Source: Methylomonas methanica (GTDB taxonomy: Bacteria > Pseudomonadota > Gammaproteobacteria > Methylococcales > Methylomonadaceae). Taken from it: 64,000 bases of DNA. The position numbers and the translations under genes were made by a program. Below, piece after piece: positions 31,822 to 64,000 of the stretch (positions are counted from its first letter, which is position 1; every line of letters starts with the position of its first letter). The stretch lies in contig LUUF01000115.1 of NCBI GenBank assembly GCA_001644045.1, positions 1 to 64,000 of the forward strand, in the 5' to 3' direction. The notes beneath the pieces were generated by a model. The model was not told where the DNA came from. It saw nothing but the letters and a program-made list of their open reading frames with translations, and did no database searches.

Positions 31822-31839
31822 GTCTTGTTGATTAAATGT

Positions 31840-31979
31840 GTCGCTGTCGCGACGGGTTTATTTAAAGTCGGGCCGACAAATCGGCAGGATTGCCGATTTG
31901 CATGCGGAGCACCCGCAGGGTGAAACACAAGGATGTGTTTCGTGAAACCGACATGCAAAACCAGCCTCGCGATAGTGAC
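31840..31979 (+). repeat. Hairpin-array repeat element, short copy (A)
   Basis: The 140-base element is bounded by inverted ends (GTCGCTGTCGCGAC at the left; TCGCGATAGTGAC at the right). Inside are an 8-base-pair hairpin with loop AGGATT (31878-31899) and a 7-base-pair hairpin with loop AAGGAT (31922-31941). Both stems and much of the spacing recur in the long copy at 56765-57187. It lies in front of hoxQ, within the interrupted hydrogenase operon. GGA in a hexaloop is the hallmark of CsrA/RsmA sites. Confidence 0.8.
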
Positions 31980-49100: not shown

Positions 49101-50495
49101 ATGTCCGAAGACTATTATTTCACCCCCGATCAAGCCGTCGAATCCTTAAAAGTACCGCCGCATTCCATTCAGGCCGAGCAATCGGTGCTGGGCGGCTTAA
49201 TGCTGGATAACCAAACCTGGGATTCGGTAGCCGACAAGGTGGTCGAGACCGACTTTTATCGCCGCGATCATCGACTGATTTTCCGTGCTATTGCTCAGCT
49301 GGCGGAAAAGCAAGATCCGTTCGATGTGGTGACCTTATCCGAGGTGCTGGAAACCACAGGTGAACTGCAGGATGTGGGCGGTCTGGCGTATTTAAGTACG
49401 CTGGCCCGGGACACGCCCAGCGCCGCGAATATCGTGGCCTACGCCAATATCGTGCGTGATCGTTCGGTATTGCGGCAACTGATTCATGTCGGTACCGAGA
49501 TTTCCGATTCGGCATTTACCACCGAGGGCCGGGAAACTGCGGATTTATTGGAAAACGCCGAGCGGCGGGTATTCGAAATCGCCGAGCAGCGGCAGCGCGG
49601 GCAGGGCGGGTTTAGCTCGATCAAATCCTTGCTGGCCAAGGCCGTGGATAAAATCGAAACCCTTTACGAATTGGATGGAGATATAACCGGGGCCAGCACC
49701 GGTTTTACCGATCTGGATGAAAAAACCTCCGGCCTGCAGCCTGCCGATTTAATTATCGTTGCCGGCCGGCCGTCGATGGGTAAAACCACTATCGCAATGA
49801 ACATGGCCGAGAACGTGGCGCTGAAAAGCGGCATGCCGGTGGCGGTGTTCAGTATGGAGATGCCGGGCGAATCCTTGGCGATGCGGATGATGTCGTCGCT
49901 GGGACGCATCGATCAACACAAGGTGCGAACCGGTAAACTGGACGATGACGATTGGCCGCGCCTGACCTCGGCAATCAATTTACTGGCCGAGACCAAGCTG
50001 TTTATCGACGACACGCCGGCGCTGACACCGACCGAGGTTCGCTCGCGCGCCCGCCGTTTGACCCGCGAACATGGCCAGCTGGGCTTGATCGTGCTGGATT
50101 ATTTGCAGTTGATGCAATCCCCTGCCAGCGGCGATAACCGGGTTCAGCAGATTTCCGATATTTCTCGCGGTCTTAAAGCCTTGGCTAAAGAGCTGAATGT
50201 ACCGGTGATTGCGCTATCTCAGCTTAACCGGAACCTGGAACAACGCCCCAACAAACGGCCGGTCATGTCCGATTTGCGTGAATCGGGCGCGATCGAGCAG
50301 GATGCCGACTTGATCATCTTCGTTTACCGCGACGAGGTGTATCACGAAGACAGCCCGGATAAGGGAATTGCCGAGGTGATCATCGGTAAGCAACGTAACG
50401 GACCGTTAGGTACGGTGCGACTGACCTTTCTGGGGCAATACACCCGTTTCGAGAATTTTGCCGGCGTATACAACGGTCCGGAGGATTACGAATGA
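49101..50495 (+). CDS. dnaB: Replicative DNA helicase DnaB
   Basis: The 464-residue hexameric helicase opens the replication fork. The N-terminal domain (PPHSIQAEQSVLGGLMLDN) is followed by the RecA-like motor with Walker A GRPSMGKTT, FSMEMPGESLAMRM, and the Walker B and H4 regions LIVLDYLQLM and SDLRESGAIEQDADL. There is no intein. Its stop overlaps alr by four bases, a common gammaproteobacterial pair. Confidence 0.97.
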   Translation: MSEDYYFTPDQAVESLKVPPHSIQAEQSVLGGLMLDNQTWDSVADKVVETDFYRRDHRLIFRAIAQLAEKQDPFDVVTLSEVLETTGELQDVGGLAYLSTLARDTPSAANIVAYANIVRDRSVLRQLIHVGTEISDSAFTTEGRETADLLENAERRVFEIAEQRQRGQGGFSSIKSLLAKAVDKIETLYELDGDITGASTGFTDLDEKTSGLQPADLIIVAGRPSMGKTTIAMNMAENVALKSGMPVAVFSMEMPGESLAMRMMSSLGRIDQHKVRTGKLDDDDWPRLTSAINLLAETKLFIDDTPALTPTEVRSRARRLTREHGQLGLIVLDYLQLMQSPASGDNRVQQISDISRGLKALAKELNVPVIALSQLNRNLEQRPNKRPVMSDLRESGAIEQDADLIIFVYRDEVYHEDSPDKGIAEVIIGKQRNGPLGTVRLTFLGQYTRFENFAGVYNGPEDYE

Positions 50496-51637
50496 CGCCT
50501 GCGGCTTTTGTACGTCTGGATTTGGAAGCTGTGCGTCATAACTTGATGCAAGTGAAGCGTTACGCGCCGGACAACAAAATCATGGCAGTGATCAAGGCCA
50601 ATGCTTATGGACACGGTATGGCGCGGGTAGCGACCGCTTTAGACTTGGCCGATGGCTTTGCCGTAGCCCGGGTGGATGAGGGCGTCAGGTTGCGTCAGGC
50701 CGGATTTAAACAAGCCATCACCGTGTTGCAGGGCTTTGTTTGTGTGGATGAATTGCTGCAATTGTTGAAGTTTCAATTGGCGGCGGTAATCCACACGCCG
50801 CAGCAAATCGCCATTTTGCAGCAGCAAGCCGATGCCGAAGGCAAACTCGCCGTTTGGTTGAAGATGGACACCGGCATGAACCGCCTGGGTTTTAAAGGCG
50901 CCGATTTCAATGCTGCTTATCAGCAATTACTGGGGTGCGAGCTGGTCGAGCAACCGATCAATCTGATTACGCATTTCGCCAACGCCGACGACTTGCTGGA
51001 CGATAAAACCCGCCGGCAAATCGATTTGTTTAACGATGCCGTAAAAGACTATCCCGGCGCATGCAGCATCGCTAATTCCGCGGGTATTATCGGTTGGCCC
51101 AATGTCCGTTTCGGTTCCACTCAGGACAGGGCCAGCGATTGGGTGCGGCCGGGATTGATGCTATACGGCTGCTCGCCGTTTGCCGGCAAGACCGGCGCGG
51201 ATTTTGGGTTAAAGCCGGTGATGAGTTTGCATTCGCGGTTGATCGCGGTAAAGGATGTGGCGGCCGGAGAAACGGTAGGCTACAGCGGCACCTGGCAATG
51301 CCAAACCGCGACCCGCTTGGGGGTGGTTTCAATCGGTTACGGCGACGGCTATCACTGTCACACTAAGAGCGGCGCGCCGGTGCTGGTTAACGGCCAACGG
51401 GTGACGCTGATCGGCCGGGTGTCCATGGACATGATTACCGTCGATTTGCACAGCCAGCCGGGTGTGCAACCCGGCGATCCGGTCACTTTATGGGGCGATG
51501 GGTTGCCGGTCGAGGAAATCGCCCGCCACGCCGACACCATTCCTTATACCTTGCTGTGCGGCATTACCCAGCGGGTACAGGTGATTGAGCAAGGTTTGGG
51601 CGATGGCTGTGCTCAGACTGTCGCTTCCACCTCATAG
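50492..51637 (+). CDS. alr: Alanine racemase
   Basis: The 381-residue PLP enzyme makes D-alanine for peptidoglycan. The PLP lysine lies in MAVIKANAYGHG near residue 34, and the catalytic Tyr in the C-terminal domain (SIGYGDGYHC). Other motifs are KMDTGMNRLGF and ISMDMITVDL-like GRVSMDMITVDL. The start overlaps dnaB (ATGA). The 3' end overlaps the convergent DUF2797 gene by 25 bases, which is unusual for two conserved genes. Confidence 0.96.
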   Translation: MTPAAFVRLDLEAVRHNLMQVKRYAPDNKIMAVIKANAYGHGMARVATALDLADGFAVARVDEGVRLRQAGFKQAITVLQGFVCVDELLQLLKFQLAAVIHTPQQIAILQQQADAEGKLAVWLKMDTGMNRLGFKGADFNAAYQQLLGCELVEQPINLITHFANADDLLDDKTRRQIDLFNDAVKDYPGACSIANSAGIIGWPNVRFGSTQDRASDWVRPGLMLYGCSPFAGKTGADFGLKPVMSLHSRLIAVKDVAAGETVGYSGTWQCQTATRLGVVSIGYGDGYHCHTKSGAPVLVNGQRVTLIGRVSMDMITVDLHSQPGVQPGDPVTLWGDGLPVEEIARHADTIPYTLLCGITQRVQVIEQGLGDGCAQTVASTS

Positions 51638-52407
51638 CCGGCGAATTTGCGGATATTGATCACGCCGGTATCGAACAGCAAATACTGGCCTTTGATGCCT
51701 TCCAAAATGCCGGATACCAGCGGTTCCTTATCGAAATTAAACGATTTCACCTTGCTGGGGTATTGCAGGACCGGATAGTCCAGGCTCAGGGATTCGGCAT
51801 CGTTGAGCAATTGCGGTGGGCTGTCCGGAAATTGCGCGGCGATGCCTTGCAACTGATCCGCGCAGTCCGTCAACAATCGATCGCGGATGGCGGTCATGTC
51901 CAAGGGCACGGTGTTGTTTTTCAGCATTTGCTGCCAGCTGGTTTTATCGCTGACATGTTGCGCCAAGGTTATCTCGATCAAGCCCGATAGATGGCGGGAT
52001 GTTACTTTGAAAACCGGTAGAGCTTGTACCGCGCCTTGATCTATCCAGCGGGTCGGCGTTTGCGATTGCCTAGTGATACCGACTTTGATGCCGGAAGAGT
52101 TGGCCAGATAAACGATATGCGGTTGAAAGCAAAACTCCTCTCCCCAACTCGGTTCGCGGCAGGTACCGGCGGCGTAATGGCAGGTTTCCGGTTTCATGAT
52201 GCACATATCGCACTGCGCCAGCTTGATGAAGCAGGGGTAGCAATAGCCTTGATTGAAGCTTTTGTTGGTTTTTTTTGCGCAATGCACGCAAAAAATCTGG
52301 CCGCTGTAGCGTAGCGACAGTTTTTTGCCCAATAACGGGTTCAATTCGATTTCCTGTTCGCCGATCGGCAAGCGGTATTGCACTGGCTCGGCCAATGCGC
52401 TTGTCAT
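51613..52407 (-). CDS. DUF2797 protein with GIY-YIG-like core and zinc-binding cysteines
   Basis: The protein of about 264 residues matches DUF2797. A cysteine-rich segment (CVHCAKKTNKSFNQGYCYPC, then CDMCIMKPETCHY) probably binds Zn. After that comes a GIY-YIG-like block, HIVYLANSSGIKVGITRQ and TRWIDQGA. Its biochemical role is not established to my knowledge; nuclease-like folding suggests nucleic acid work. ATG 52407 is taken; GTG 52428 upstream is also possible. Its 3' end lies within the last codons of alr on the other strand. Confidence 0.8.
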   Translation of the reverse strand: MTSALAEPVQYRLPIGEQEIELNPLLGKKLSLRYSGQIFCVHCAKKTNKSFNQGYCYPCFIKLAQCDMCIMKPETCHYAAGTCREPSWGEEFCFQPHIVYLANSSGIKVGITRQSQTPTRWIDQGAVQALPVFKVTSRHLSGLIEITLAQHVSDKTSWQQMLKNNTVPLDMTAIRDRLLTDCADQLQGIAAQFPDSPPQLLNDAESLSLDYPVLQYPSKVKSFNFDKEPLVSGILEGIKGQYLLFDTGVINIRKFAGYEVEATV

Positions 52408-52500
52408 TTTTCGCAGATTGCCTAACACCTTATTTAATCCTGATAGCCCAATAACGGCGGCTATAATGACAGCGATTCCAGCTTACTCAAAGAGGATTTG

Positions 52501-53038
52501 ATGTCGTTCATGCAAGTTGCCGCCGGCGGCAATATTCCGTTCGAAATAAATGTAGTGGTCGAGATTCCTGCATTCAGCGATCCGGTCAAGTACGAGGTGG
52601 ACAAACACACCGGAGCCTTGACCGTGGATAGATTCATGGGCACAGCGATGCAATATCCCTGCAATTACGGTTACATCCCGCAAACGCTGTCCGAAGACGG
52701 CGATCCGATGGATGTGATGATCATCACCCCCGCGCCGTTGCTGAGTGATCAATTGCCGGCCGGTTGGCGTGTTGAAAATGATAGACGAAGCCGGCCCTGA
52801 TCCGAAACTGCCGGCGGTGCCGGTACCGCGCTTGACGCCATTTTACAATCACGTCACCGATTACAAGGATTTGCAACCGGATAAGCTAGCCAAGATTACC
52901 CATTTTTTCCAACACTACAAAGATCTGGAAGAAGGGAAATGGGTCAGCGTGGAAGGTTGGGGCGGTATTGAAGATGCGCGGCAAGAGATCTTGGCTAGTG
53001 TCGGCCGCTACAAAAGCTCGCATAGCAGCCGCCGCTAA
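52501..53038 (+). pseudogene. ppa: Inorganic pyrophosphatase split by a frameshift
   Basis: From ATG 52501 (AGAGGA upstream) the frame encodes a standard Ppa N-terminus ([40 protein letters not shown]). It then leaves frame after APLLS near 52744. The rest of the enzyme continues in another frame ([16 protein letters not shown] to HYKDLEEGKWVSVEGW). Alignment with the E. coli sequence suggests three residues (G-S-V type) are lost, that is eight bases, as would happen by deletion between two GTG repeats. This is a real lesion or an assembly error. Ppa is usually essential. Confidence 0.88.
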
Positions 53039-53052
53039 TTGGTGTTCCCTTA

Positions 53053-53823
53053 TTAGCTCGTCGCTTGGGAAAGTTTCAGTTTTTTCGCGCGGTACATGGC
53101 GCTATCGGCTCGGTTCAGCAAGTCGATACTGGTTTGGCCGTCGTGGTGGTAGATGGCCGCGCCTATGCTGGCGGTGATAGAAACCGGTTTGCCATTGATG
53201 CTGCAAGCTTTCGCCAACTGAGACTGGATTTTTTCTATCACCGCCGCCACGCTGCGGTCGGCATCGACTTCGCCGAGCAAAACCAAAAATTCGTCGCCGC
53301 CGTAACGGCAAGCGGTATCGCCATAGCGAAGACAAGCCGACAAGCGTCCCGCTACCTCTTTCAGTAATTGGTCGCCGGCCGCGTGGCCGAGTTCGTCGTT
53401 GATGTTTTTGAATTCGTCCAGATCGATAAATAATAGTGCGACGGGTCTTTGTTGGCGATCGGCTTGGGCCATGGCCTGTTGCAGGCGGTCCAGCAACAAA
53501 ATTCGATTGGGGAGGCCGGTTAGCTCGTCGTGATGCGCACAGTGCAGCGCTTGTCTGTAGTTCTCGTTACTTTCCAGCAGTTGCTGTTCCAAGGTTTTGC
53601 GCGCAGCGGCAAGCGATTCGATTTGCCGGCGAGCATCGGCCAGTTGCTGTTGACTAATAGCCAGGGCGCGTTCCAATCCGGCGATTTCCGCGCGGGTTTG
53701 ATTCAATTGACAGCATTCACTATCGCTTTCGCATTCCGGTGTTTGGCTAAGCCAGCGTTGGGCGACGACGGATTCGATAACAGTTGGTTTATGGTGCTGG
53801 AGTCTGATTCGGTTATTCATCAC
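53053..53823 (-). CDS. Diguanylate cyclase with coiled-coil N-terminus
   Basis: The 256-residue protein has a predicted coiled coil (about 40-90, LERALAISQQQLADARRQIE) followed by a GGDEF domain (HHDELTGLPNRILLLDRL, FIDLDEFKNINDELGH, CRYGGDEFLVLL). An intact GGDEF signature means active c-di-GMP synthesis, and RYGD five residues ahead of it is a canonical inhibitory I-site. No membrane or sensory domain is seen; dimerisation via the coil may control activity. Confidence 0.92.
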   Translation of the reverse strand: MMNNRIRLQHHKPTVIESVVAQRWLSQTPECESDSECCQLNQTRAEIAGLERALAISQQQLADARRQIESLAAARKTLEQQLLESNENYRQALHCAHHDELTGLPNRILLLDRLQQAMAQADRQQRPVALLFIDLDEFKNINDELGHAAGDQLLKEVAGRLSACLRYGDTACRYGGDEFLVLLGEVDADRSVAAVIEKIQSQLAKACSINGKPVSITASIGAAIYHHDGQTSIDLLNRADSAMYRAKKLKLSQATS

Positions 53824-54143
53824 AGCATCTCCACTAGGACAGCGACTGAATCGATGGCAGTCAACACTGCGCTGGATAAGATCGAATTATCAACTCTCAT
53901 GACAATAACCTTTATGAATTAAGTGGCCAGAAATCTCATTAACCGAGGATTGTTGGCTTTATGGAGTCAATTCTTATGCCAGGAGCATTGGTCTTGAGTT
54001 TATTGTCAGGTAACTGCCTGTTGTTAAAAGGATTTGTAGCTAATGAAACGATGGGCGGTGGCGGGGTAATGCGAGGTGTTGGGACTAAGTGTAGACGGTA
54101 TTTCGTCAATATTACGAAATACCGTATTTCTAGCTTGGGTGGC
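53824..54143. other. Intergenic region with a strong palindrome
   Basis: This 320-base region lies between two leftward genes. At 54095-54125 there is a perfect 12-base inverted repeat (ACGGTATTTCGT and ACGAAATACCGT) with a seven-base loop, just past the stop of the lytic transglycosylase gene. It lacks a T run and may be an operator, a mRNA-stabilising hairpin or a repeat. No gene is seen. Confidence 0.55.
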
Positions 54144-55001
54144 TTAGGTTTTTTGTTCGATGACCAGATTTTTTTGCAGTTCTTGCGGCGGTACCGGATG
54201 GGTCGGTTTTTGATATGCAGCCAGAATCTGTTTCACATAATTACGGGTTTCTTGATATGGCGGGATGCCTTGATAACGTTCTACCGCGCCTTCCCCGGCA
54301 TTGTAAGCGGCCAGTACTAAATCGACTTTACCTTCGAAATGCCGTAACAGCCAGTGCAGATAAGCGGTGCCGCCTTTGATGTTTTGAATCGGATTCCAGC
54401 TGTCTTTTACCCCAAAGCGTTCGGCGGTTTCCGGAATCAGCTGCATCAGGCCCTGGGCGTTTTTGCCGGACAGCGCGCTGGGGTTGAAAGCCGATTCGGC
54501 TTGAATCACCGCCATGATCAGTTGCGGGTCGATGCTGTAAATCGGCGCAATCTCTTTAACCCAGGCTTCGACCAGTTCGCGCTTAGGATTGGGTTCGGCA
54601 ACCAGTTTAACTTTGGGTTCCGGTGCCGGCGGCTGGCAGGCCGGATCGTCACTAGGTGTTATATCGCCAAAACGGGTCAGCATTTGCTTAGCATGGCTAT
54701 CGCCGTGTTCCGCCGCTTGTTTAAACCAGTGGCTGGCTAGCGGAATGCTACGAGCCACGCCGCGGCCGTTAAAATACATAAAACCGATGCTGTAAGCCGA
54801 TTCGGCATCGCCTTGCAGCGCGGCCTTGCAATACATATCAAATGCCTGGCGATAATCTTGTTTGACCATCCGGCCATGTTCGAAATCGGAAGCGGTCTTG
54901 CGGATTTGTTCCAGATTAACCGGCACTACGTCCTGGGCGTTGCCGATTTGGGCGGCGAGACCTAAACACACGGCAATTAGCGATTGGCGTTTCAAGTTCA
55001 T
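54144..55001 (-). CDS. Lytic transglycosylase with Sel1 repeats
   Basis: The 285-residue exported protein has a signal peptide (SLIAVCLGLAAQIGNA), two Sel1/TPR-like repeats (about 45-110; AFDMYCKAALQGDAESAYSI, SHWFKQAAEHGDSHAKQML), and a C-terminal SLT domain. The catalytic Glu is in AVIQAESAFNPSALSG near residue 166, followed by GLMQLIPETAERFGV and LAAYNAGEGAVERY. It cleaves peptidoglycan to anhydromuropeptides. Pairing Sel1 with SLT suggests recruitment to a protein complex. Confidence 0.92.
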   Translation of the reverse strand: MNLKRQSLIAVCLGLAAQIGNAQDVVPVNLEQIRKTASDFEHGRMVKQDYRQAFDMYCKAALQGDAESAYSIGFMYFNGRGVARSIPLASHWFKQAAEHGDSHAKQMLTRFGDITPSDDPACQPPAPEPKVKLVAEPNPKRELVEAWVKEIAPIYSIDPQLIMAVIQAESAFNPSALSGKNAQGLMQLIPETAERFGVKDSWNPIQNIKGGTAYLHWLLRHFEGKVDLVLAAYNAGEGAVERYQGIPPYQETRNYVKQILAAYQKPTHPVPPQELQKNLVIEQKT

Positions 55002-55581
55002 AAAATTCTCGTTCTGTATTGCTGAGACTAGGCTCTTCTAAACCCGGCCGGAAAAGGATTGGAGTGTCAATCCTCCAAGCTTCCAGCTACCGTATACATT
55101 GCAAGTGCTTGATCGCCCATATGGCCGAGTTTCCATGCAATTGCGCTAAATTGCATCCCGCGGGATGTTGGTAAACCTTGAAGTAGTTCCGGAGCCGCCG
55201 AGGGTGTTAGCTTTATCGGAACTGCTTCAAGGCTGTCCGCACTATACCCTCTGTTTTGCGGAGGCTATATTGCCCATATGGGCAGGTGAGCGTGGCTGGA
55301 ATATATCACAGGCTTGGTTTTGCGGCGACTTAAAGTGTTGTTTTTGAGGGAATTGTGGCGGTTTTGCCGGCATGGCGACTGGTTTAAACCTTGGCTCTTG
55401 GATTGACCAAAGTACTACTTTCGCAGCGAAAGCCATCCCCGATTTTCGCCCTGGAGGCCAGTCTATCGGTTGCACATATTCGCCTGGAGCGCATTGTACT
55501 TCGTCAAAGTAAGCATTCAGGTAAAGGGTCAACTCAAATGCAAACGTAATTTGTATTCAGGATGACTTGTCGCCGATTAGT
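55002..55581. other. Intergenic region with a decayed copy of the hairpin-array repeat
   Basis: The 580-base gap has no convincing gene. Small frames here are not supported. From about 55405 to 55505 the minus strand resembles 57003-57075 of the long hairpin element: both have CCGATAG-CTGGC and TTTTCG-GCGAAAGTA blocks. The rest of the gap, including two GCCCATATGG stretches near 55118 and 55270, has no assigned role. Confidence 0.5.
55405..55505 (-). repeat. Hairpin-array repeat element, decayed copy (C)
   Basis: Read on the minus strand, this segment follows the order of the long copy: CAACCGATAGACTGGC, then a hairpin at 55426-55449 with loop GGGGAT and stem GCGAAAATC/GGCTTTCGC (one mismatch, one wobble), then GCGAAAGTAGTAC. 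The termini are not recognisable. Confidence 0.6.
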
Positions 55582-56469
55582 TTATGCTTGGCCCCTAAAT
55601 TTATTTTTGCGAGACATTGCGTGCATTAAGCCTACGCCCACTGACATTAAAAAGAAGCCGCCAGGCAAAGGAACAGTAGCTGGTGGTGGCACTAATGTGA
55701 CACCGCTGAAATTCACTTGTTGTAGTCCGCCGAAATCAAAAGCCAGTGCAGTATCAAATGCTTCGTCACCCCAGTTGATCACCCCAAACTCAAGAAAATA
55801 CGATCCCGAGGCTGCGAAAGAGTAAGCGGACTTAATCCACCCGGTCGGACCGCAGGTATTCGCGTTATCCCAGCAAATACCGCTTGAGCTACCCAGCGGA
55901 ATCCAGTTTGTGCCGGCCACGTCAAACCCAACGGTATTGCCGTCATTCAATACGGCATCAAGTTCATCCGGTAAATTGTTATCTAGCTGCCGGTTTAACA
56001 CGTTACCCGGTACGACATTGCCGTTTGCGGAATTGGTGCTGCGCGCGGTAAACAACCAGGCAATAGTATTGTTAGTATCCGCATTGACCAAACGCGCCCA
56101 AGCGTAGTCGTCGTAACCGCGGCCATCGGTGGAGACGTAATTAAACTGCAGAGTTAGCGTGTCATTAGCGCTGGCATTGAACGCGTTCGATTGAATTTTC
56201 GAGCCATTGGTCTGATTCTCCGTGCCGCGTCCTTCATCCCTCAACACCAGCGGCGAAACACCATAGACGCCGCCAGACGTCGATACGTAGCCGAACTGCG
56301 CATTTCCAGTCGGCGAATTATGTACCGTGCTGTCGCCATAGATAAGTCCGGCCGCGCCGCTTGCAGTCCAAGTGTTGCTACCGACGGAAATATTGGAGGC
56401 TTGTGCGGTGGGTATCGCAAGCGCGCCGCTCAAACTTAGGGCGATCAGGGGAATACGCGAGTTTTTCAT
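55582..56469 (-). CDS. VPLPA-CTERM exported protein 3
   Basis: The 295-residue protein has a signal peptide (IPLIALSLSGALAIPTAQA) and a C-terminal sorting signal (TVPLPGGFFLMSVGVGLM, then HAMSRKNK). The body has a beta-rich NF038-type PEP-CTERM pattern: GYVSTSGGVYGVSPL, FNYVSTDGRGYDDYAWARLV, and FLEFGVINWGDEAFDTALAF. It is probably a surface or secreted beta-sandwich protein. ATG 56469 follows AAAGG and removes a poor 21-residue extension. The long hairpin element lies upstream. Confidence 0.85.
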   Translation of the reverse strand: MKNSRIPLIALSLSGALAIPTAQASNISVGSNTWTASGAAGLIYGDSTVHNSPTGNAQFGYVSTSGGVYGVSPLVLRDEGRGTENQTNGSKIQSNAFNASANDTLTLQFNYVSTDGRGYDDYAWARLVNADTNNTIAWLFTARSTNSANGNVVPGNVLNRQLDNNLPDELDAVLNDGNTVGFDVAGTNWIPLGSSSGICWDNANTCGPTGWIKSAYSFAASGSYFLEFGVINWGDEAFDTALAFDFGGLQQVNFSGVTLVPPPATVPLPGGFFLMSVGVGLMHAMSRKNKFRGQA

Positions 56470-56764
56470 GGTTGTACCTTTGTTTAAGTGTGTTTGTTTT
56501 GTCGAATAGCTGTTTTCAGGCCATAGGGTCATGCCGTGCGGTGGTCTCTATGTCGCTTATCTTGGCCGTCGGCGAAATTTATTCTGAGGTTTATTCCTTG
56601 ATACGGGGTAAAGGTTCAATTTGTAGCAGTCAGCTAAAAGAGAATATTCAAAGCAAAGGCTTGAGCTTATAAGCTTTACACCCGGGGTATACGGCGTTGA
56701 TGATTAAATTTTCGTTAATGTTTAGATGAGGCTTGTGGTGAGGCTGGATATTTGTAAATGAGGT

Positions 56765-57187
56765 GTCGCTAGTGCGACGGCAAGTTTTGACGTTGGGTTT
56801 CGGCCTGTATGCCGCGCCGAGCACCGGAGCTTTTGAACGGATCAGCCCGTAGGGGCGATGCAGGGATGCATCGCGTTGCAGAAGGGGCAGGAGCCCCTTT
56901 CGTCTACCCCGCTCAAAAGCTTCGGAGAGCAGGGAATAAGCGGCATCCGGGTGTATTTTCTTTTGGATACTTTTTTTTGGCCAAGCACAAATTTGCCTGG
57001 AGCGAATTTGGACAGCCGATAGGCTGGCCCGGAGGATGAAAACCAGGGAGGGTTTTCGTAGCGAAAGTATCTCGGTTGTCGGTCCGACAAATCGGCAGGA
57101 AAGCCGATTTGCATTTACCCATTGAGGCGAAAAACAAGGATGTTTTTCCTGAAACCGACATACAAACACCCATCGCGATAGCGACTC
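56765..57187 (+). repeat. Hairpin-array repeat element, long copy (B)
   Basis: The 423-base element is bounded by GTCGCTAGTGCGAC (left) and TCGCGATAGCGAC (right). It holds at least five hairpins with GGA in a six-base loop: 56855-56874 (AGGGAT), 56882-56899 (CAGGAG), 57038-57057 (AGGGAG), 57089-57110 (AGGAAA) and 57129-57148 (AAGGAT). A TTGTCGG/CCGACAA palindrome is at 57076. The last two hairpins also occur in copy A. Small frames across it are by-products. It lies between a VPLPA gene and DyP, both leftward. Confidence 0.8.
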
Positions 57188-57257
57188 AACAAATACAATG
57201 AAGCCGGAAATGCCAAAGGGCTTATTCCGGCCTAAATTCTCAGCTGTCCGGCAAAAA

Positions 57258-58613
57258 TCAAGAATTCCCCAACAGCCCCAACGCACTCAAACTAGGCAAG
57301 AAGAAATAACTCCCGCCCCTTGTCGTCACAAACTGCTGAAACCCACAAACCCGCCGCCGCAACGGTTCATCCTGAATCGTGAAATTGCGATTTTCCGCCA
57401 CGCCGCTGCCGATCAACGGGTCGTCTTCGTCGTAAAGACCGGCGAATTTGACGCTGTTGATCCAGGTATGTTGCACAAATTCGAATTGGCGTTCGATATT
57501 CGCGTTTAAGCAGATGAACAACAAGCCGCGTTCCTTGCCGTCGTCTTTTACCGGGTTTTCCAGGAAGTTGCCGTAACTGCGGCCGCGGCGCAAGATGCGG
57601 TGGCGGTTGGCCACTTTCAGCGCTTCTTCTGCGGTGGCGCCCAAGCCTACGGCTCTCGGGTTGGCGCGGCGAATGTGCGAGCCTAGCGGGCAGCCGGTGC
57701 CATGCGGGTCTTTGGTGAAATTGAAGCTGTTATCGACTTTGCCTGGATCGGTATCCTGATTGGGTTCTACTACCGCCCCGCTTTTCCAGCGGCCAACAAA
57801 TTTCGAAGCTAGATAGTCGGTGGTGATGCCTTGCCGTGCGGCTTCTTCTTCCATGAATTGCCAGAACGCACCGACATCCTGTTTCAACTGGCGTAACACC
57901 AGATAGGTGCCGTTTTTGCCGAAGGCTTCGCCGACAGCACCCAGTTGCGGCATTTTGGTGAGTTTACCGTCGTATTGATTCGGGTAACCCAGCAAAAATT
58001 CGCCGGTGGCAATTTCGCCGGCGCCGCTAGTGCTTGGGAATCCGTCCACTTGTGGATCGGAAATGCCGTCCGCAAAACCGAAATGCTCCAAGGTAAAGCC
58101 ATTGGCGTCTTGTTTTTTCTCGCCGGCATCCAAGCGCTGTACCACGCTTAAGCCGGCGCCTTTAAAGGCTTTTTCGTGATATTTCTGGCTGGCATTGTGG
58201 ATCGCATCGTTCTTGGAAAACAGTATGAACAGCAAATCCACGCGCTTGGCGCCGCTACCCCAGTCCCAAGCGCTCGGGTCGTTGATGCCCCGGTCGCCCA
58301 GCAGCGCCGAACGGTGTTCGGAATCCATGCCTTCCTGAAACGACAATTCAAAGCTATACAAGCTGTCCTTATCCAATTGCAGTTTTTCGAAACCGGAATA
58401 GCTGAGCGCTAAGTTGATGCGGTTTTCGGTTTCGTCGGTCGGTTTATCGGCACCATGACTGATCTGATTTTGCTCGACCAGGTTTTTCAGCCAGGGCTTG
58501 GTTTTGCCGGCATCGTCGATTTGCAGCAGGTAATAACTGCAATTGGCCATATATTTGTTGTAGCCGCTGAATACGATGCCTTGTACATCTTCTAATTTAT
58601 CTATCGTCGTCAT
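57258..58613 (-). CDS. Dyp-type heme peroxidase
   Basis: The 451-residue protein has the DyP catalytic set: the distal GFADGISDP (GxxDG with catalytic Asp) near residue 179, the proximal heme His in PLGSHIRRANPR near 311, and the distal Arg in NRHRILRRGRSYG. The length suits the larger class C/D type. It has no signal peptide or encapsulin-targeting tail that I can see, so it is probably cytoplasmic. It lies 13 bases from an upstream two-domain membrane protein and shares a strand with the GST-P450 gene, forming a likely three-gene unit. Confidence 0.93.
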   Translation of the reverse strand: MTTIDKLEDVQGIVFSGYNKYMANCSYYLLQIDDAGKTKPWLKNLVEQNQISHGADKPTDETENRINLALSYSGFEKLQLDKDSLYSFELSFQEGMDSEHRSALLGDRGINDPSAWDWGSGAKRVDLLFILFSKNDAIHNASQKYHEKAFKGAGLSVVQRLDAGEKKQDANGFTLEHFGFADGISDPQVDGFPSTSGAGEIATGEFLLGYPNQYDGKLTKMPQLGAVGEAFGKNGTYLVLRQLKQDVGAFWQFMEEEAARQGITTDYLASKFVGRWKSGAVVEPNQDTDPGKVDNSFNFTKDPHGTGCPLGSHIRRANPRAVGLGATAEEALKVANRHRILRRGRSYGNFLENPVKDDGKERGLLFICLNANIERQFEFVQHTWINSVKFAGLYDEDDPLIGSGVAENRNFTIQDEPLRRRVCGFQQFVTTRGGSYFFLPSLSALGLLGNS

Positions 58614-58626
58614 TGTCGGAGTCCTT

Positions 58627-59943
58627 TTATAAGCATTTCAGCCAGGCGGCCAGGTCGGCGGTGGAAAACAGCCCTTCGTGAATGTGGCGGTTGTTTTCGA
58701 TGTTTTTTACCGACAAATCGGTGTAGGCGCTGTACCAGACCAGCTCTGGCAATTGGCTGTTACGGGCAAAATTTTTGAAGCGCTGCTCATCGCGCGAACC
58801 ACCCTTGATGGCCAGCCATTGGGTATCGGGGAAGCCGCGATCCTTCGCTTGCTGCGTGCTGCTCCACACTGCGGTCAAACCGAGACTGGCATGGTCGATG
58901 AATTCGCCCAGATAATTTTCCCAACTACCGTCGTAATTACTCATGAACAACAAGCGCCGCCGGCCGCCGGCATTGCCGGGCAGGATTACCCAACGGGCAA
59001 AATGGATCGTGACAATGCCACTCAAATTGCCCTTGGTTGCCACCAATTTGGCCACCAGATTGATTGCGGCCAGAACGATCTTTAGTGTGTAAAAACGAAA
59101 AGCGCCGGGCTTGATTTCGATGACACTGGTCAAATGGTTCTGTAATTGACGATCTTCAACGCGCTGAATCGCCTCGCGCTCCTTGGTTTTCACCCAGGGC
59201 GTATCGTCCTGCTTGTCACGCATCTCATGCCAACGCAATGCCAGCAGATAAACCACTGCGGCGACCAGCGCCAGCACCACCAAAAACTCGACAAACGGCC
59301 CGAAGAAACCGAAAAAACCACCGACCAAAACCAACCCCAATGTCCACAGCAAGCCGGTAAACAGCTTGTCGCCATAAAGTGTCAAAAATGGCCGGTTTTC
59401 GGGTTTGGGGATATTACCCAGTTGCTGAACAATCGCCGCGTGGATGGCGGCGGGATCTTGCGTTGCCAAGCTGTCGCGATTGGCATCGATATAGGTCTCA
59501 ATTTGCTGACGAATATCGCGTTGCCGGTAAACCGTATCGCGGGTTTGGCCCGGATGCGCCACGTAAAACGCATTGGCGCCGTGGTCGTTAGTCAATAAAA
59601 AGCTGGCCAGTTGGCCCGCGTCATTGCCCGGATATCCGGCGCAACAGCCGTAAACCTTGTTAACAAACTCCGGATTCTTGGCGATCAAGTCATTGACGAA
59701 CTGTTTGGCGGTGCCGTCGATATTGGCTTCGAAGGCCAACAGAGCCGGCGTCGGCGAACTACCAGGCGACGGATGGTCGCCAGGAATCACGAAAAACGTG
59801 CAGTAATGCAGGTACTGGTAATCGGCGAATTTAATGACGGGATTGTTTTTAATGTCAGTGCCGATCGGGCCAAGATAGTCTTCCAACTCCTTCAGCTTGT
59901 CCGGCAAAATTTCCGTGATAACGGTCATCGGATTCTGTTGCAT
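58627..59943 (-). CDS. Two-domain membrane protein of the DyP/P450 cluster, unknown
   Basis: The 438-residue protein was not recognised. Two membrane helices in the middle (about 195-240, LLWTLGLVLVGGFFGFFGP and FLVVLALVAAVVYLLAL) separate two soluble parts. Each part has a pattern like a ferredoxin-like or dimeric alpha-beta barrel (HYCTFFVIPGD then LLAFEANIDG; TIHFARWVILPG then LLFMSNYDGSWENYLGEF). This repeated layout recalls the DyP fold, but the heme residues are absent. It may bring the soluble DyP and P450 to the membrane. Function is unknown. Confidence 0.65.
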   Translation of the reverse strand: MQQNPMTVITEILPDKLKELEDYLGPIGTDIKNNPVIKFADYQYLHYCTFFVIPGDHPSPGSSPTPALLAFEANIDGTAKQFVNDLIAKNPEFVNKVYGCCAGYPGNDAGQLASFLLTNDHGANAFYVAHPGQTRDTVYRQRDIRQQIETYIDANRDSLATQDPAAIHAAIVQQLGNIPKPENRPFLTLYGDKLFTGLLWTLGLVLVGGFFGFFGPFVEFLVVLALVAAVVYLLALRWHEMRDKQDDTPWVKTKEREAIQRVEDRQLQNHLTSVIEIKPGAFRFYTLKIVLAAINLVAKLVATKGNLSGIVTIHFARWVILPGNAGGRRRLLFMSNYDGSWENYLGEFIDHASLGLTAVWSSTQQAKDRGFPDTQWLAIKGGSRDEQRFKNFARNSQLPELVWYSAYTDLSVKNIENNRHIHEGLFSTADLAAWLKCL

Positions 59944-59980
59944 ACCTTTGTCCTCTTGAAATTATTATGGTGGTGCAAAT

Positions 59981-62017
59981 TTACCGATCGAACGCCAGGA
60001 CGAACTGATCGGGAAACGGGCCGTCGTAGAGCAGGCAACCTTGCTGCTTGAGATTGTCCAACCTCAACAGGCTGCCCACGATCAACGGAATCTGGATGCG
60101 ATTGATATACTCGCCAAAGCAACGGTGCATGCCGTCGCCAAAGTGCATATAGCGGTCCAATGAGCGATCGTCGCGTACGCTGTCCGGCTCCGGCCAGGCT
60201 GTTTCGTCAAACATCGCCGAAGCGGTGAAGGCGAATACTTCGGTACCCGGCGGAATTTTCACCCCGGCGATCTCGGCACCGCCCTTGCAATGCCGCCGCA
60301 TCGCCGCGGCCATCGTATTAAAGCGGAACACGTCGAAGCACAGATGCAGCAATTTATCCTCGTCGTCGACCACCTGTTTGGCGCGCGCCAACACCTCGGG
60401 CTTGGTCAGTAGTTGTTGGACAATCAGGGTGCTGGTCATTGAGGTGGTGTCCAACGCGCCGACGATCAGACCTGAGATGTTGCGGCGGATGCCGTCGTCG
60501 TCCAGGTCGTGTTCGCCGTCCATGCCCATCTTGACCAGGCGCGACAGAAAATCCTCGAACTGCTCGCCTTGTTTGATGTGCTGCCGACGCTCGGCGATCA
60601 GATTTAACAGGTACGGCCCCATTTCCCGGAACGACTGTTCGGCGGTCATCTGAATGCTGCGGTCGTTACTTAGGTTTAAAAACAGATCGTGAAACAGGGA
60701 ACGCATCCAGCGCATCATCGTCACTTCATCCGGTCCCGGCACCCCCAGATAGTCGCGGATAAAACGCCGCGCTACCGGCCGGGTCAATTGCGACACCATG
60801 TCGATCCGGCCCACCGGCAAGGCGGCTTGGATCATCTCGTCGCAATGCTGGCGGACGATGCGGCGAATCAATTGGTCTTCGCCGGGCTTGATGACCCGGC
60901 GTAACGCGCCTTGTTCTTTGCTGTAGGCTTCCGAGCGGTCCATTCCTAAGAAAAACGGCCCATTCAGGCGTTGCATATTAGGGGCGTTGATCTCGGCGAT
61001 GGTGAATTCGGTATCGCGGGCCAAGGTCTCGCGGACATCGCTGTCTCGGGTCACCAAGGCGCGTTTGCCCAGCACCAGTACCGGTTTATGTTTACGTAAC
61101 AGCCCGAATAGCCAGCGCTGCACCGGCGCGCCGGTCAACATCGCAACGCCGCGCGCCAGGTAGTAACTGACGATATTTTGTGGAGTGGTGGACGTAGGGT
61201 GGTGATCCAGAGATGGTGCCGGCGCGGGCCGATGTTCGCGATACATCTTAGCGGCCAGGGCGCCCGTGGGACTGGCGCGCAACTGTTCGACGAAAGCCTG
61301 GTAGGCAGCGGGCAAGGCTTCCTTGGGCGGTTGTACGCCGCCGAATTGTTCCGGTAACAACACCGGCGCGGACAGCGCGGCCAGGCAATAATCGGCAATA
61401 GTGGGGCGGTCGCCCAGCAAATAGGCTCTGCCGTCGGCCAGCAGGGCGTCCAGTTCCGCAAAAATCACTTCGATTTGTTGTTTGCAGGGTTCGACTTGTC
61501 CGGGATCGGCAGGGAGATTTTTTGCCATGGCTTTGGCGAGAAATGGATAGGCGCGCTCGGCCAGCCATTTTTGCCAGACGGGCACGCGCTGTTGCCAGAA
61601 CGACAAGACGGTTTCTTTGTGGGGTAGCAACATCGCATAGCCATAATTGCGGGTCGCCAGGCCCAGTTTGTCCACCAGTAACGCCAGCAAGCGTTCGGTT
61701 TCCGCCAGACTCTTCTCGTCGCGCGGATATAGCCGCAGTTCAGCGGGCAAACGGGCATCGATGTATTGCAGCGATTCGCGCATCGTGCATAAGGTCGCTT
61801 CGCTGGTAATCAGCACCGGCATGGCCTTAGCGTCGGCTCCGGCCAGTGCAAAGGGCAGTATATGCAACATCGGCACATTGCCTTCTTCCCGATACGGCAC
61901 GCCGCCGTAGTCGAGCATCCAGCGCACTAATTCGCTGATATGCGATACCGGAATCGTCAATAAACGATTCAATTGTTTGGACTTGGCTCCGCGCCGCGTG
62001 CTGCCGGGTTTGATCAT
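59981..62017 (-). CDS. Glutathione S-transferase-like / cytochrome P450 fusion
   Basis: The 678-residue protein joins a GST-like module (about 30-260; VLITSEATLCTMRESLQYID, then YLLGDRPTIADYCLAALSAP) to a P450. The P450 has I-helix GALDTTS near 522, heme-Cys motif FGDGMHRCFG near 631, and FDVFRF where ExxR is expected (Glu replaced by Asp). It has no membrane anchor. ATG 62017 follows AGGAAGG. With DyP next to it, peroxide-driven oxidation of a lipid or electrophile is a fair guess. The domain pair is unusual. Confidence 0.85.
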   Translation of the reverse strand: MIKPGSTRRGAKSKQLNRLLTIPVSHISELVRWMLDYGGVPYREEGNVPMLHILPFALAGADAKAMPVLITSEATLCTMRESLQYIDARLPAELRLYPRDEKSLAETERLLALLVDKLGLATRNYGYAMLLPHKETVLSFWQQRVPVWQKWLAERAYPFLAKAMAKNLPADPGQVEPCKQQIEVIFAELDALLADGRAYLLGDRPTIADYCLAALSAPVLLPEQFGGVQPPKEALPAAYQAFVEQLRASPTGALAAKMYREHRPAPAPSLDHHPTSTTPQNIVSYYLARGVAMLTGAPVQRWLFGLLRKHKPVLVLGKRALVTRDSDVRETLARDTEFTIAEINAPNMQRLNGPFFLGMDRSEAYSKEQGALRRVIKPGEDQLIRRIVRQHCDEMIQAALPVGRIDMVSQLTRPVARRFIRDYLGVPGPDEVTMMRWMRSLFHDLFLNLSNDRSIQMTAEQSFREMGPYLLNLIAERRQHIKQGEQFEDFLSRLVKMGMDGEHDLDDDGIRRNISGLIVGALDTTSMTSTLIVQQLLTKPEVLARAKQVVDDEDKLLHLCFDVFRFNTMAAAMRRHCKGGAEIAGVKIPPGTEVFAFTASAMFDETAWPEPDSVRDDRSLDRYMHFGDGMHRCFGEYINRIQIPLIVGSLLRLDNLKQQGCLLYDGPFPDQFVLAFDR

Positions 62018-62483
62018 GATTCCTTCCTCTTGCTTGCTATTGTTATAGTTATTAATGTTATAGCTGGCATACACCGGCGACTGTTAGCCGTATCGGTCTG
62101 CATGGCATTTTGATATGCACGCTTGGTAAAACAACTTGCCGGTCTGGTCTGCTTATTTACGCCGTTATCGGCGGCTAAGCAATTGTTAATCCACCTGCGA
62201 AGCAAACGCCGAGCTTTAGCAGAGTATCAATAATAGACCAATCGTAACTAATTGAAATAAAAAGCGAAAGACAAAATGTTGCTTAGCAACAACCGTGCCT
62301 AAATGCGAAGCACGTCACAAAACGCGGCGGGTCCGCCCGCCTGTCGCCTAGCAAGCGGAAAGCTTCTCTGCAGACGGAATCGGTTGCAAATCATTCCGGT
62401 TCTTTCTGTTCGGACCTTAATCAGATTGTCATTTGCCGCTGCCTATAATCCGGGCCTCTTCACAACGCTTAGGAGCAGTCGCA
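62018..62483. other. Divergent control region between GST-P450 and phoD
   Basis: This 466-base gap must carry promoters for both directions. It contains no convincing gene; a small frame at 62303-62590 runs into phoD in another frame. No strong operator was seen. Confidence 0.4.
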
Positions 62484-64000
62484 ATGCAATTATTGAAATC
62501 CAGCTGTCAATTCTTAAAGCCGGCCAAACTGGCATTGGCAATCGCCGGCTTGTTAACACTGAACGCGCCGGTATTTGCGGAAACCGTTGATGTGCCGCAA
62601 ATGGAGCAAGGCATCCAGATCGGTGATTTAGCGCCTGGACGCGCCATCGTCTGGAGCCGCGCCGACCGCCCGGCGCGCATGATGCTGGAATATGCTTATA
62701 ACCCGCAGTTCAAGGATGCAGTTAGTGTCCGTGGCCCGCATGCATTGGCCGAAACCGACTTTACTGCCCGCCAAGACTTGACCGGTTTACCCGACGGTAA
62801 AGACGTTTATGTCAAAGTCTGGTTTGAAGATTTGACGAATACCCGCGGCAAAAGTGAACCGGTTATCGGACATTTTCACACTATCGGCAAGCGCGACGAT
62901 ATCCGTTTCGTCTGGGGCGGCGACACCGCCGGCCAAGGCTGGGGCATCAACGAAAGCTTCGGCGGCATGAAGATTTACGAAGCCATGCGCCAGGTGCAGC
63001 CGCAATTTTTCATTCAAAGCGGCGACAATGTTTACTCCGACGGCCCGATTCCGGAGAGCAAGCTGGCCGAAAATGGCCAGGTTTGGACTAACGTAGTAAC
63101 TCCGGAAGTGAGTAAGGTTGCGGAAACCTTGGATGAGTTCCGTGGCCGCTACAAATACAATTTGCTGGATGAAAACGTCCGTCGCTTCAATGCGGAAGTG
63201 CCGCAAATCTGGCAGTGGGACGATCATGAAGTGGTCAATAACTGGTCGGATTCCAAAGATTTAAATGCCGATCCACGTTACACCGAAAAGAACATACCAA
63301 CGCTGATTGCGCGGGCCACTAAAGCCTTCCTGGAATATGCGCCGTTGCGTCCGCACGACGCCGAGGAATCCGAACGGATTTATCGCAAAATTTCCTACGG
63401 CAAATTGCTGGATGTTTTTGTGCTGGACATGCGCAGCTATCGCGGCCCTAACACCGCTAATCTGCAAGCTCAGGAGAATGCTGAAACTGCTTTCTTGGGT
63501 GCCAAGCAATTGGCTTGGCTGCAGGACGAGTTGAAACATTCCAAAGCCACCTGGAAAGTCATCTCCGCCGACATGCCGATTGGTTTGAATATCGGCGACG
63601 GTAATACTGCCCAAGGCCAAGCGCGTTGGGAGGCGGTTGCAAACGGCAACGATGGTCCTGCTGCCGGTCGGGAGCTGGAAATGGCTCGTCTGTTGAGTTT
63701 TATCAAGCATGAGCAAATCAACAACCTGGTTTGGCTGACTGCCGATGTCCACTATGCCGCAGCCCACTATTACGATCCAACTAAGGCTGCATCCAAAGAC
63801 TTTGCTCCGTTCTGGGAGTTCGTCGCCGGTCCGTTAAATGCCGGTTCCTTCGGACCGAACAGCACCGACGGTACATTCGGTCCGCAAGTGGTGTTCTCTA
63901 AAGCCCCGCCCGCCGGCCAAGCCAATCTGTCGCCTTACGCCGGCCTGCAATTCTTTGGCGAAGTGAATATCGACAAAAAAAGCCGCGCGATGACTGTCGA
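62484..64000 (+). CDS. phoD: PhoD-family alkaline phosphatase/phosphodiesterase (3' end beyond window)
   Basis: The gene runs off the window, so no stop is seen; 505 codons are present. AGGAG precedes ATG 62484. A Sec-type signal peptide (LALAIAGLLTLNAPVFA) replaces the twin-arginine signal common in this family. PhoD motifs follow: FVWGGDTAGQGWGI, FIQSGDNVYSDG, IWQWDDHEVVNNW and LTADVHYAAAHYY, which hold the metal and phosphate ligands. It should release phosphate from phosphodiesters in the periplasm. It is divergent from the GST-P450 gene. Confidence 0.93.
   Translation, partial: MQLLKSSCQFLKPAKLALAIAGLLTLNAPVFAETVDVPQMEQGIQIGDLAPGRAIVWSRADRPARMMLEYAYNPQFKDAVSVRGPHALAETDFTARQDLTGLPDGKDVYVKVWFEDLTNTRGKSEPVIGHFHTIGKRDDIRFVWGGDTAGQGWGINESFGGMKIYEAMRQVQPQFFIQSGDNVYSDGPIPESKLAENGQVWTNVVTPEVSKVAETLDEFRGRYKYNLLDENVRRFNAEVPQIWQWDDHEVVNNWSDSKDLNADPRYTEKNIPTLIARATKAFLEYAPLRPHDAEESERIYRKISYGKLLDVFVLDMRSYRGPNTANLQAQENAETAFLGAKQLAWLQDELKHSKATWKVISADMPIGLNIGDGNTAQGQARWEAVANGNDGPAAGRELEMARLLSFIKHEQINNLVWLTADVHYAAAHYYDPTKAASKDFAPFWEFVAGPLNAGSFGPNSTDGTFGPQVVFSKAPPAGQANLSPYAGLQFFGEVNIDKKSRAMTV

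Follow-up and report, generated by a model that had tools for sequence, protein, structure and literature searches.

The region at positions 56765-57187 of the window (the whole 64,000-nucleotide stretch of DNA analyzed here) carries one copy of a large and apparently undescribed class of structured RNA. The existence of this structured RNA class is well supported, and the element is very probably a folded RNA. Its two-domain fold combines a pseudoknot domain with an apical arm, which in the copies of this genome bears hairpins with A-N-GGA loops. More than half of the copies are arranged as outward-facing pairs around accessory genes, and the content of these slots differs between species. 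Judging by sequence, the GGA loops probably bind CsrA.

GGA-Loop Hairpins in the Window Copy

A preliminary description of this region reported at least five hairpins with GGA in six-base loops. Six are present on the + strand of 56765-57187 (Table 1), the one at 56988-57010 with loop CTGGAG having been overlooked, and the hairpin at 57129-57148 does contain ACAAGGATGT. A strict hexaloop is not universal among the GGA loops, and some can be closed to four or five bases. Dinucleotide shuffles yield far fewer such hairpins (mean 0.27, maximum 3, in 1000 shuffles), and the - strand of the same region has one. When all 64 trinucleotides are ranked by their occurrence in hairpin loops of this region, GGA is at the top with 6, and the overlapping AGG has 5.

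The count of six comes from this loop search, whereas a rule that also requires A before GGA gives five for the window copy. By the latter rule, 47 copies in the same genome (the 53 that score at least 59 bits, as described below, minus six fragmentary ones) carry 87 sense GGA hairpins: none in 3 copies, one in 12, two in 25, three in 4, four in 2, and five in 1. The window copy has the highest count, and on the antisense strand nine of the 47 copies have one such hairpin. The genome contains one csrA gene.

Table 1. Coordinates of the element, its predicted parts, and related features in the window
Feature	Position	Strand	Remarks
Long-form structured element with extra 3' GGA hairpins	56797..57187	+	R1 covariance-model match 56793-57122
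Inverted match to outer end of a second copy	56763..56816	-	Sequence match, left 50 bases
Domain 1, P2 ATGCCGC (56809-56815) / GCGGCAT (56940-56946)	56809..56946	+	Encloses P3/P4 and two GGA hairpins
P3/P4 within domain 1	56824-56856 paired with 56893-56925	+	
GGA hairpin H1, loop AGGGAT	56855..56874	+	
GGA hairpin H2, loop AGGA	56881..56900	+	
Domain 2, pseudoknot region	56947..57071	+	Long-form placement judged by eye
GGA hairpin, loop CTGGA (CTGGAG)	56988..57010	+	
GGA hairpin, loop AGGGAG	57036..57059	+	
GGA hairpin, loop AGGAAA	57088..57111	+	
GGA hairpin, loop AAGGAT	57129..57148	+	ACAAGGATGT
Terminal hairpin TCGC-GATA-GCGA, outer end	57173..57184	+	Helix 10 of covariation count
Degenerate partner copy, far side of bracketed gene	55416..55483	-	
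Bracketed gene, 316 aa	55582..56532	-	Presumably PEP-CTERM-like, judging by its C-terminus
Second, partial copy	31838..31979	+	GGA hairpins AGGAT and AAGGAT visible

The region had also been viewed as a single element with inverted ends that may spread like a MITE. Its left 50 bases (56763-56816) instead correspond to the inverted outer end of a second copy, and probably are the remnant of an inverted pair rather than a terminal repeat of one element. Spread in the manner of a MITE is likewise unsupported in this form: a single copy is without inverted ends, outward pairs bracket accessory genes, and no target-site duplication is visible at the slot before argJ. The second, partial copy in the window has two outer ends that point in opposite directions. 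Open reading frames of up to 212 aa traverse element copies (56648-57286 on the - strand of the window, and similar cases), and these might be annotated as hypothetical proteins.

A Two-Domain Fold with a Pseudoknot

Ordinary, short-form copies are about 260 bases long and are without the inverted end seen in the window copy. Thirty-five of them align cleanly, and 33 make up the alignment called A1, from which two truncated copies were left out. A1 has 10 helices, including crossing ones. P2, the 12-pair P4, hairpin H1, and a small stem around hairpin H2 come in this order, and 3' of H2 are a long stem (S2) crossed by S1 to form the pseudoknot, two overlapping stems, and the terminal hairpin. 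Although 98.5% of the 2277 cells are paired, this percentage is flattered because the structure came from the same alignment. The stronger measure is the number of cells with changes on both sides of a pair, which is 227 compared to 64.6 in shuffles, with none of 500 shuffles as high. The two overlapping 3' stems both covary, and the linker between them is nearly absent, such that by eye they look too tight to coexist. This suggests that the two stems are possible alternatives rather than a second pseudoknot.

A contact resembling a triple helix is also evident, in which the pyrimidine loop that precedes S2 corresponds in parallel register to the purine strand of this stem. A shift of the C is accompanied by a shift of the G in 32 of the 33 A1 copies, the exception being the copy at locus L032. 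Of 84 distant copies, 74 were parsable, and their matching runs average 7.43, versus 6.48 when partners are swapped (with none of 300 such trials reaching 7.43) and 6.88 in antiparallel register, all of these values being uncorrected for the kinship of the copies. In long forms, including the window copy, the purine strand of this contact appears by eye to be mostly gone, with two extra GGA hairpins instead; in the window copy these occupy the loop of domain 2.

The non-Watson–Crick cells of A1 comprise 84 G·T and 8 A·C combinations (binomial 4e-17, calculated on cells that are not independent). For a cruciform in double-stranded DNA, G·T and A·C combinations are expected to be equal in number. 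The large excess of G·T thus indicates that the folded molecule is the outward-reading strand. This strand is most likely RNA, with single-stranded DNA as the alternative. Folding thermodynamics do not favor the + strand (z of -6.35 versus -7.55).

Size and Range of the Family

The genome search and covariance model that had been proposed bear out the view of a dispersed repeat. The genome of origin has 58 blast matches and 66 matches to the covariance model (R1), 53 of the latter at 59 bits or more. R1 also finds matches in 47 of 61 relatives, in 93 of 369 genomes of the class, and in 62 of 398 genomes of the phylum, and many genomes of the genus have at least 32 scored candidates each.

Matches listed from a motif scan of named genomes include Selenomonadaceae, Leeuwenhoekiella, and others, whose copies have weak R1 scores of 27 to 43 bits. 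Five of the six selenomonad copies examined have GGA hairpins upstream of the pseudoknot motif, and such hairpins were scored in none of the four Bacteroidota copies examined. At three Bacteroidota loci (L167, L170, and L138), the sequence upstream of the pseudoknot motif differs. With one query copy, phage records gave no match and plasmid records gave three, each of 41 bases. Viral contigs yielded one exact motif match (L249), which is also R1-positive.

No Rfam family was found at the gathering threshold in positions 50000-64000 of the window, or at an E-value threshold for one copy and four loci with type B copies (4227 families; type B is defined below). The comparison of one copy with the Rfam family PrrB_RsmZ gave 19.6 bits (E 0.017), which is below the gathering value of 44. 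Searches of open PMC papers, conducted mostly at the title level, returned no description of the element, and its absence from print is not thereby established.

Outward-Facing Pairs and Their Cargo

Neighboring copies within 4 kb in the genome of origin are oriented -+ in 15 cases, ++ in 3, and +- in none. Thirty of its 53 copies reside in -+ pairs and 34 in a cluster of any kind, while 19 are alone, some of them near contig ends. The matches listed for distant genomes include 27 -+, 4 ++, 3 --, and 4 +- arrangements, with +- occurring only in G224 and G767; these orientation counts exclude 20 pair regions that had been selected as -+ pairs. One more +- pair is present at locus L293 of G792, where five copies of mixed orientation lie within 1.3 kb (657-1961). 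Another locus (L034:2163-3062) carries three tandem copies in the same direction, spaced by 55 to 63 bases.

Before argJ lies a slot whose pair encloses differing genes in G000, G013, G011, and G006. A fifth species (G036) has the same argJ side and different genes to the left. There, ORFs of 275 and 305 aa are located left of the argJ-side pair (L088:12-1756), at the place of a ThiI-like gene in the other four species. The left copies of this slot are 91 to 98% identical across the five species, and their cargo is different, with at most short nucleotide stretches in common. This constancy of the left copies while the cargo changes implies that cargo and ends do not have to move together. Similarly, in the window's own slot, relative G013 has a 325-aa ORF without a nucleotide match to the 316-aa gene.

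Seven other relatives were inspected for the argJ slot. Six have both flanking genes close together and no element. The seventh (G032) likewise showed no element, and a search of its 1.5-kb flank did not locate the left gene. Upstream, a short ORF that looks TusA-like by eye has its stop codon a few bases before the start of the insert, which extends to about 17 to 34 bases before argJ. No target-site duplication was seen at this slot, the sole one inspected, although its empty sites are too diverged for certainty. Copies lie 7 to 40 nt from a flanking gene in several slots, and one slot is situated among nif-type genes.

Eight of 11 cargo proteins from the genome of origin are without a Pfam match, and the others match an AAA_21 ATPase, DUF5677, and, below threshold, ABC2. 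For 18 cargo proteins of relatives, ten are without a match; the domains recognized include IS110 transposase, HNH, Mrr_cat with Peptidase_M78, DUF4145, and DUF1152, and there are weak matches to PLDc_2 and Yip1. No enzyme is common to these 29 proteins. PADLOC analysis of ten cargo proteins gave GajA/Old-like, capP/RmrA-like, and PDC-S05 matches, some of them weak, and no match for four. Six genes outside the pairs were also tested, including those for NAD kinase, argJ, aspartate kinase, and a GTPase.

The same 2.3-kb cargo, consisting of an IS110 transposase gene and a 272-aa ORF, is found 99.87% identical in two slots of G036 with different element copies (L089:1803-4303 and L100:2139-4582). 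A RAYT-like Y1 transposase gene adjoins a copy in at least two genomes (L277 in G000:C72, and L273:3901-4431), and one of the two Y1_Tnp genes in the genome of origin is next to a copy. RAYT was rejected as a general mobilizer of the element, with matches in just 8 of 286 sequence records, one of which had been chosen for its RAYT gene.

Exchangeable Apical Modules and the Presence of csrA

The H1 loop in A1 reads A-N-GGA-T with N free, and its column identities are 1.0, 0.56, 1.0, 1.0, 1.0, and 0.94, compared to 0.73 for the stem. In 30 distant copies, at least one GGA loop is present in 25 and at least two in 20, versus 2.9 and 0.12 in shuffles. Two positions ahead of GGA, A is found in 37 of 45 of these loops, such that A-N-GGA is retained in most loops while the stems diverge. 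The available portion of a report on Alcanivorax gives A-N-GGA as the CsrA motif (PMC9788540).

Other distant copies carry a second apical module, type B, which is without GGA hairpins and is marked by TGTyTGAGC ... GAGTT. It takes the place of the GGA hairpins of type A in many families (L250-L268 and L293-L342). A third apical form, GCGCAGTRACACGCGC, occurs at L321 and L322 in a family (f212) outside the class. Because members without GGA hairpins exist, CsrA binding is not the whole or core function of the element. The earlier proposal, in which the RNA is read from left to right and offers sites of the CsrA type, is supported with respect to fold, strand, A-N-GGA loops, and the presence of csrA. 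Two outcomes that would have counted against it, a genome devoid of csrA and GGA loops no commoner than in shuffled sequence, did not occur.

Of the 369 genomes of the class, 313 have a match to csrA (PF02599), as do 24 of 38 further element-bearing genomes; 11 of the 93 element-bearing genomes of the class are not among the 313. The two types were assigned using 123 R1-supported elements from 76 genomes, 21 of which have no csrA match, and type A is present in five of these 21. Among genomes at least 98% complete, type A occurs in 29 of the 40 that have csrA and in none of the 13 that have no match (p 3e-6; unclassified genomes, 3 and 2, respectively, left out), although nine of the 13 belong to one family (f115). 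Regardless of completeness, 36 of the 48 genomes with csrA carry type A, compared to 5 of the 19 without (p 5.6e-4; 7 and 2 unclassified genomes left out). At the family level, using near-complete genomes of at most 100 contigs, type A is found in 15 of 24 families with csrA versus 0 of 5 without (p 0.017; one family per side unclassified), which is a modest association.

The five genomes with type A and no csrA match are 73% (G159), 95% (G183), 87% (G223), 86% (G246), and 96% (G351) complete and are divided into 120 to 590 contigs. G246 and G351 are both genomes of one genus, and the genus would argue against a link between type A and CsrA if csrA has truly been lost there. Type B is present also in genomes with csrA, and some csrA-containing genomes (e.g., family f89) have copies of neither type. 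Type B is probably under-detected because R1 was built from type A. A separate report, in its available portion, states that nearly all Burkholderia lack csrA (PMC7074383). We conclude that the predicted docking of CsrA to type A is well supported by comparison.

Possible Functions

We propose that the element is a CsrA-docking structured RNA at the 3' end of bracketed cargo transcripts, an explanation that, taken as a whole, we consider to have about an even chance of being correct. Because each bracketed gene reads in the sense direction into one of its two flanking copies, transcripts of cargo in either orientation would have the element as their 3' untranslated end. This 3'-end role on its own is plausible, if somewhat short of an even prospect. 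A CsrA dimer would clamp paired GGA hairpins at this end, and the cargo transcripts would thereby come under CsrA control. The 87 GGA hairpins in 47 copies might also titrate CsrA, either as a side effect or as a function. Decoy action is possible, although a net decoy effect on CsrA seems doubtful. We also offer, as a tentative generalization, that these are RNA borders used across phyla, wherein a pseudoknot-triplex scaffold carries exchangeable docking modules, type A serving CsrA and type B another partner, and brackets chromosomal slots of interchangeable accessory and defense-like genes, each of which would thereby come under a core regulator.

The finding of one scaffold with two exchangeable apical modules is also compatible with an insulator, in which a structured RNA gate ends cargo transcripts at both slot borders (perhaps linked to Rho) and CsrA is one tuning protein of several. 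Such a role would suit copies that read outward on both sides and lie as close as 7 to 40 nt to a flanking gene in several slots. However, no U-run follows the terminal hairpin by eye, and we regard the insulator as rather unlikely. The idea of an intrinsic terminator was rejected for want of this U-run, as judged by eye from the sequence.

A free decoy that soaks up CsrA, either transcribed separately as a small RNA or released from cargo transcripts by cleavage, would make the pairs and cargo incidental and thus leave the pairing around genes unexplained. Up to six GGA hairpins are present per copy (87 in the 47 copies), and long forms have extra ones at varying places, yet 40 of the 47 copies have two sites or fewer, which is few for a dedicated sponge. 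The PrrB_RsmZ match noted above (19.6 bits, E 0.017) agrees with a decoy, but it is weak, below threshold, and from one copy. Type B moreover has no GGA hairpins, and by eye the alignment shows no conserved upstream promoter. For these reasons we view a free decoy as unlikely.

We assign a similarly low probability to a transposon end or recombination site, where the single-stranded DNA or RNA fold would be recognized by a transposase or recombinase, the unit of (-) cargo (+) would be mobile, and the GGA loops would serve the enzyme. The outward pairs do resemble transposon ends, and whole units have been inserted between neighboring genes at the argJ slot; at this same slot, however, no target duplication is seen and the left copies remain 91 to 98% identical despite the change of cargo. 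A Y1 transposase-like gene adjoins a copy in at least two genomes, and an identical 2.3-kb IS110-bearing cargo occupies two slots of one genome, but the 29 cargo proteins examined have no common enzyme. The abundance of the element (at least 32 scored candidates in many genomes of the genus) would fit with mobility, whereas one query copy gave no phage matches and plasmid matches of just 41 bases. The association of GGA loops with csrA would also be unexplained.

Finally, the preliminary description raised the possibility of selection at the DNA level. A repeat that has no RNA function, and whose palindromes persist because of cruciforms, nucleoid proteins, or a repeat-spreading bias, is consistent with the many palindromes and the good folding of both strands but is very improbable given the selection of one strand (G·T 84 versus A·C 8), the crossing helices with a strand-specific third-strand match, and the better conservation of the H1 loop than of its stem.

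If the proposed CsrA-docking explanation is true, then in many bacteria the accessory genome is connected to the carbon-storage regulator CsrA by an abundant and apparently overlooked class of RNA. The element would serve as a handle for new genes; a few of the cargo proteins resemble known phage-defense proteins. A further natural pseudoknot, with triple-helix-like covariation, would be gained, as would a clear swap of protein-docking modules that tracks the presence of the protein concerned.

Comparison with Known Systems

The CsrB, CsrC, RsmX, RsmY, and RsmZ sRNAs have several A-N-GGA hairpin loops and soak up CsrA. RNAs of the CsrB/RsmZ class are independent transcripts controlled by GacA/UvrY. 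The element resembles them in having multiple A-N-GGA hairpin loops beyond chance expectation in a genome with csrA. In contrast to them, it exists as dozens of dispersed copies, includes a pseudoknot domain, and forms pairs around genes, and the Rfam threshold was not reached by the one copy compared.

Other RNAs are alike in part. According to the available portion of the report on Alcanivorax, CsrR1 and CsrR2 are proposed to sequester CsrA and carry several GGA motifs; one is derived from the hfq 5' UTR and the other is independently transcribed, and that portion does not report a paired repeat (PMC9788540). RsmU/sRX061 of Xanthomonas, as described in the available portion of its report, is an RsmA-binding RNA with GGA motifs derived from a 3' UTR, and it comes from one mRNA (PMC7694677).

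Among repeats, REP/REPIN sequences and BIMEs with RAYT are dispersed, palindromic, and often inverted, as characterized in the available portions of two reports (PMC3116915 and PMC2817692), and a RAYT-like gene adjoins the element in at least two genomes. Compared with REP/REPIN sequences as characterized there, however, the element is 260 nt long rather than a short palindrome, has the strand asymmetry of an RNA, and holds genes inside its pairs. Like a MITE, the element is short and noncoding and has many copies, and as with MITEs and composite transposons these are inserted between genes. Unlike either, it has no terminal repeats of its own and no duplication is seen, and its ends persist while the cargo between them changes.
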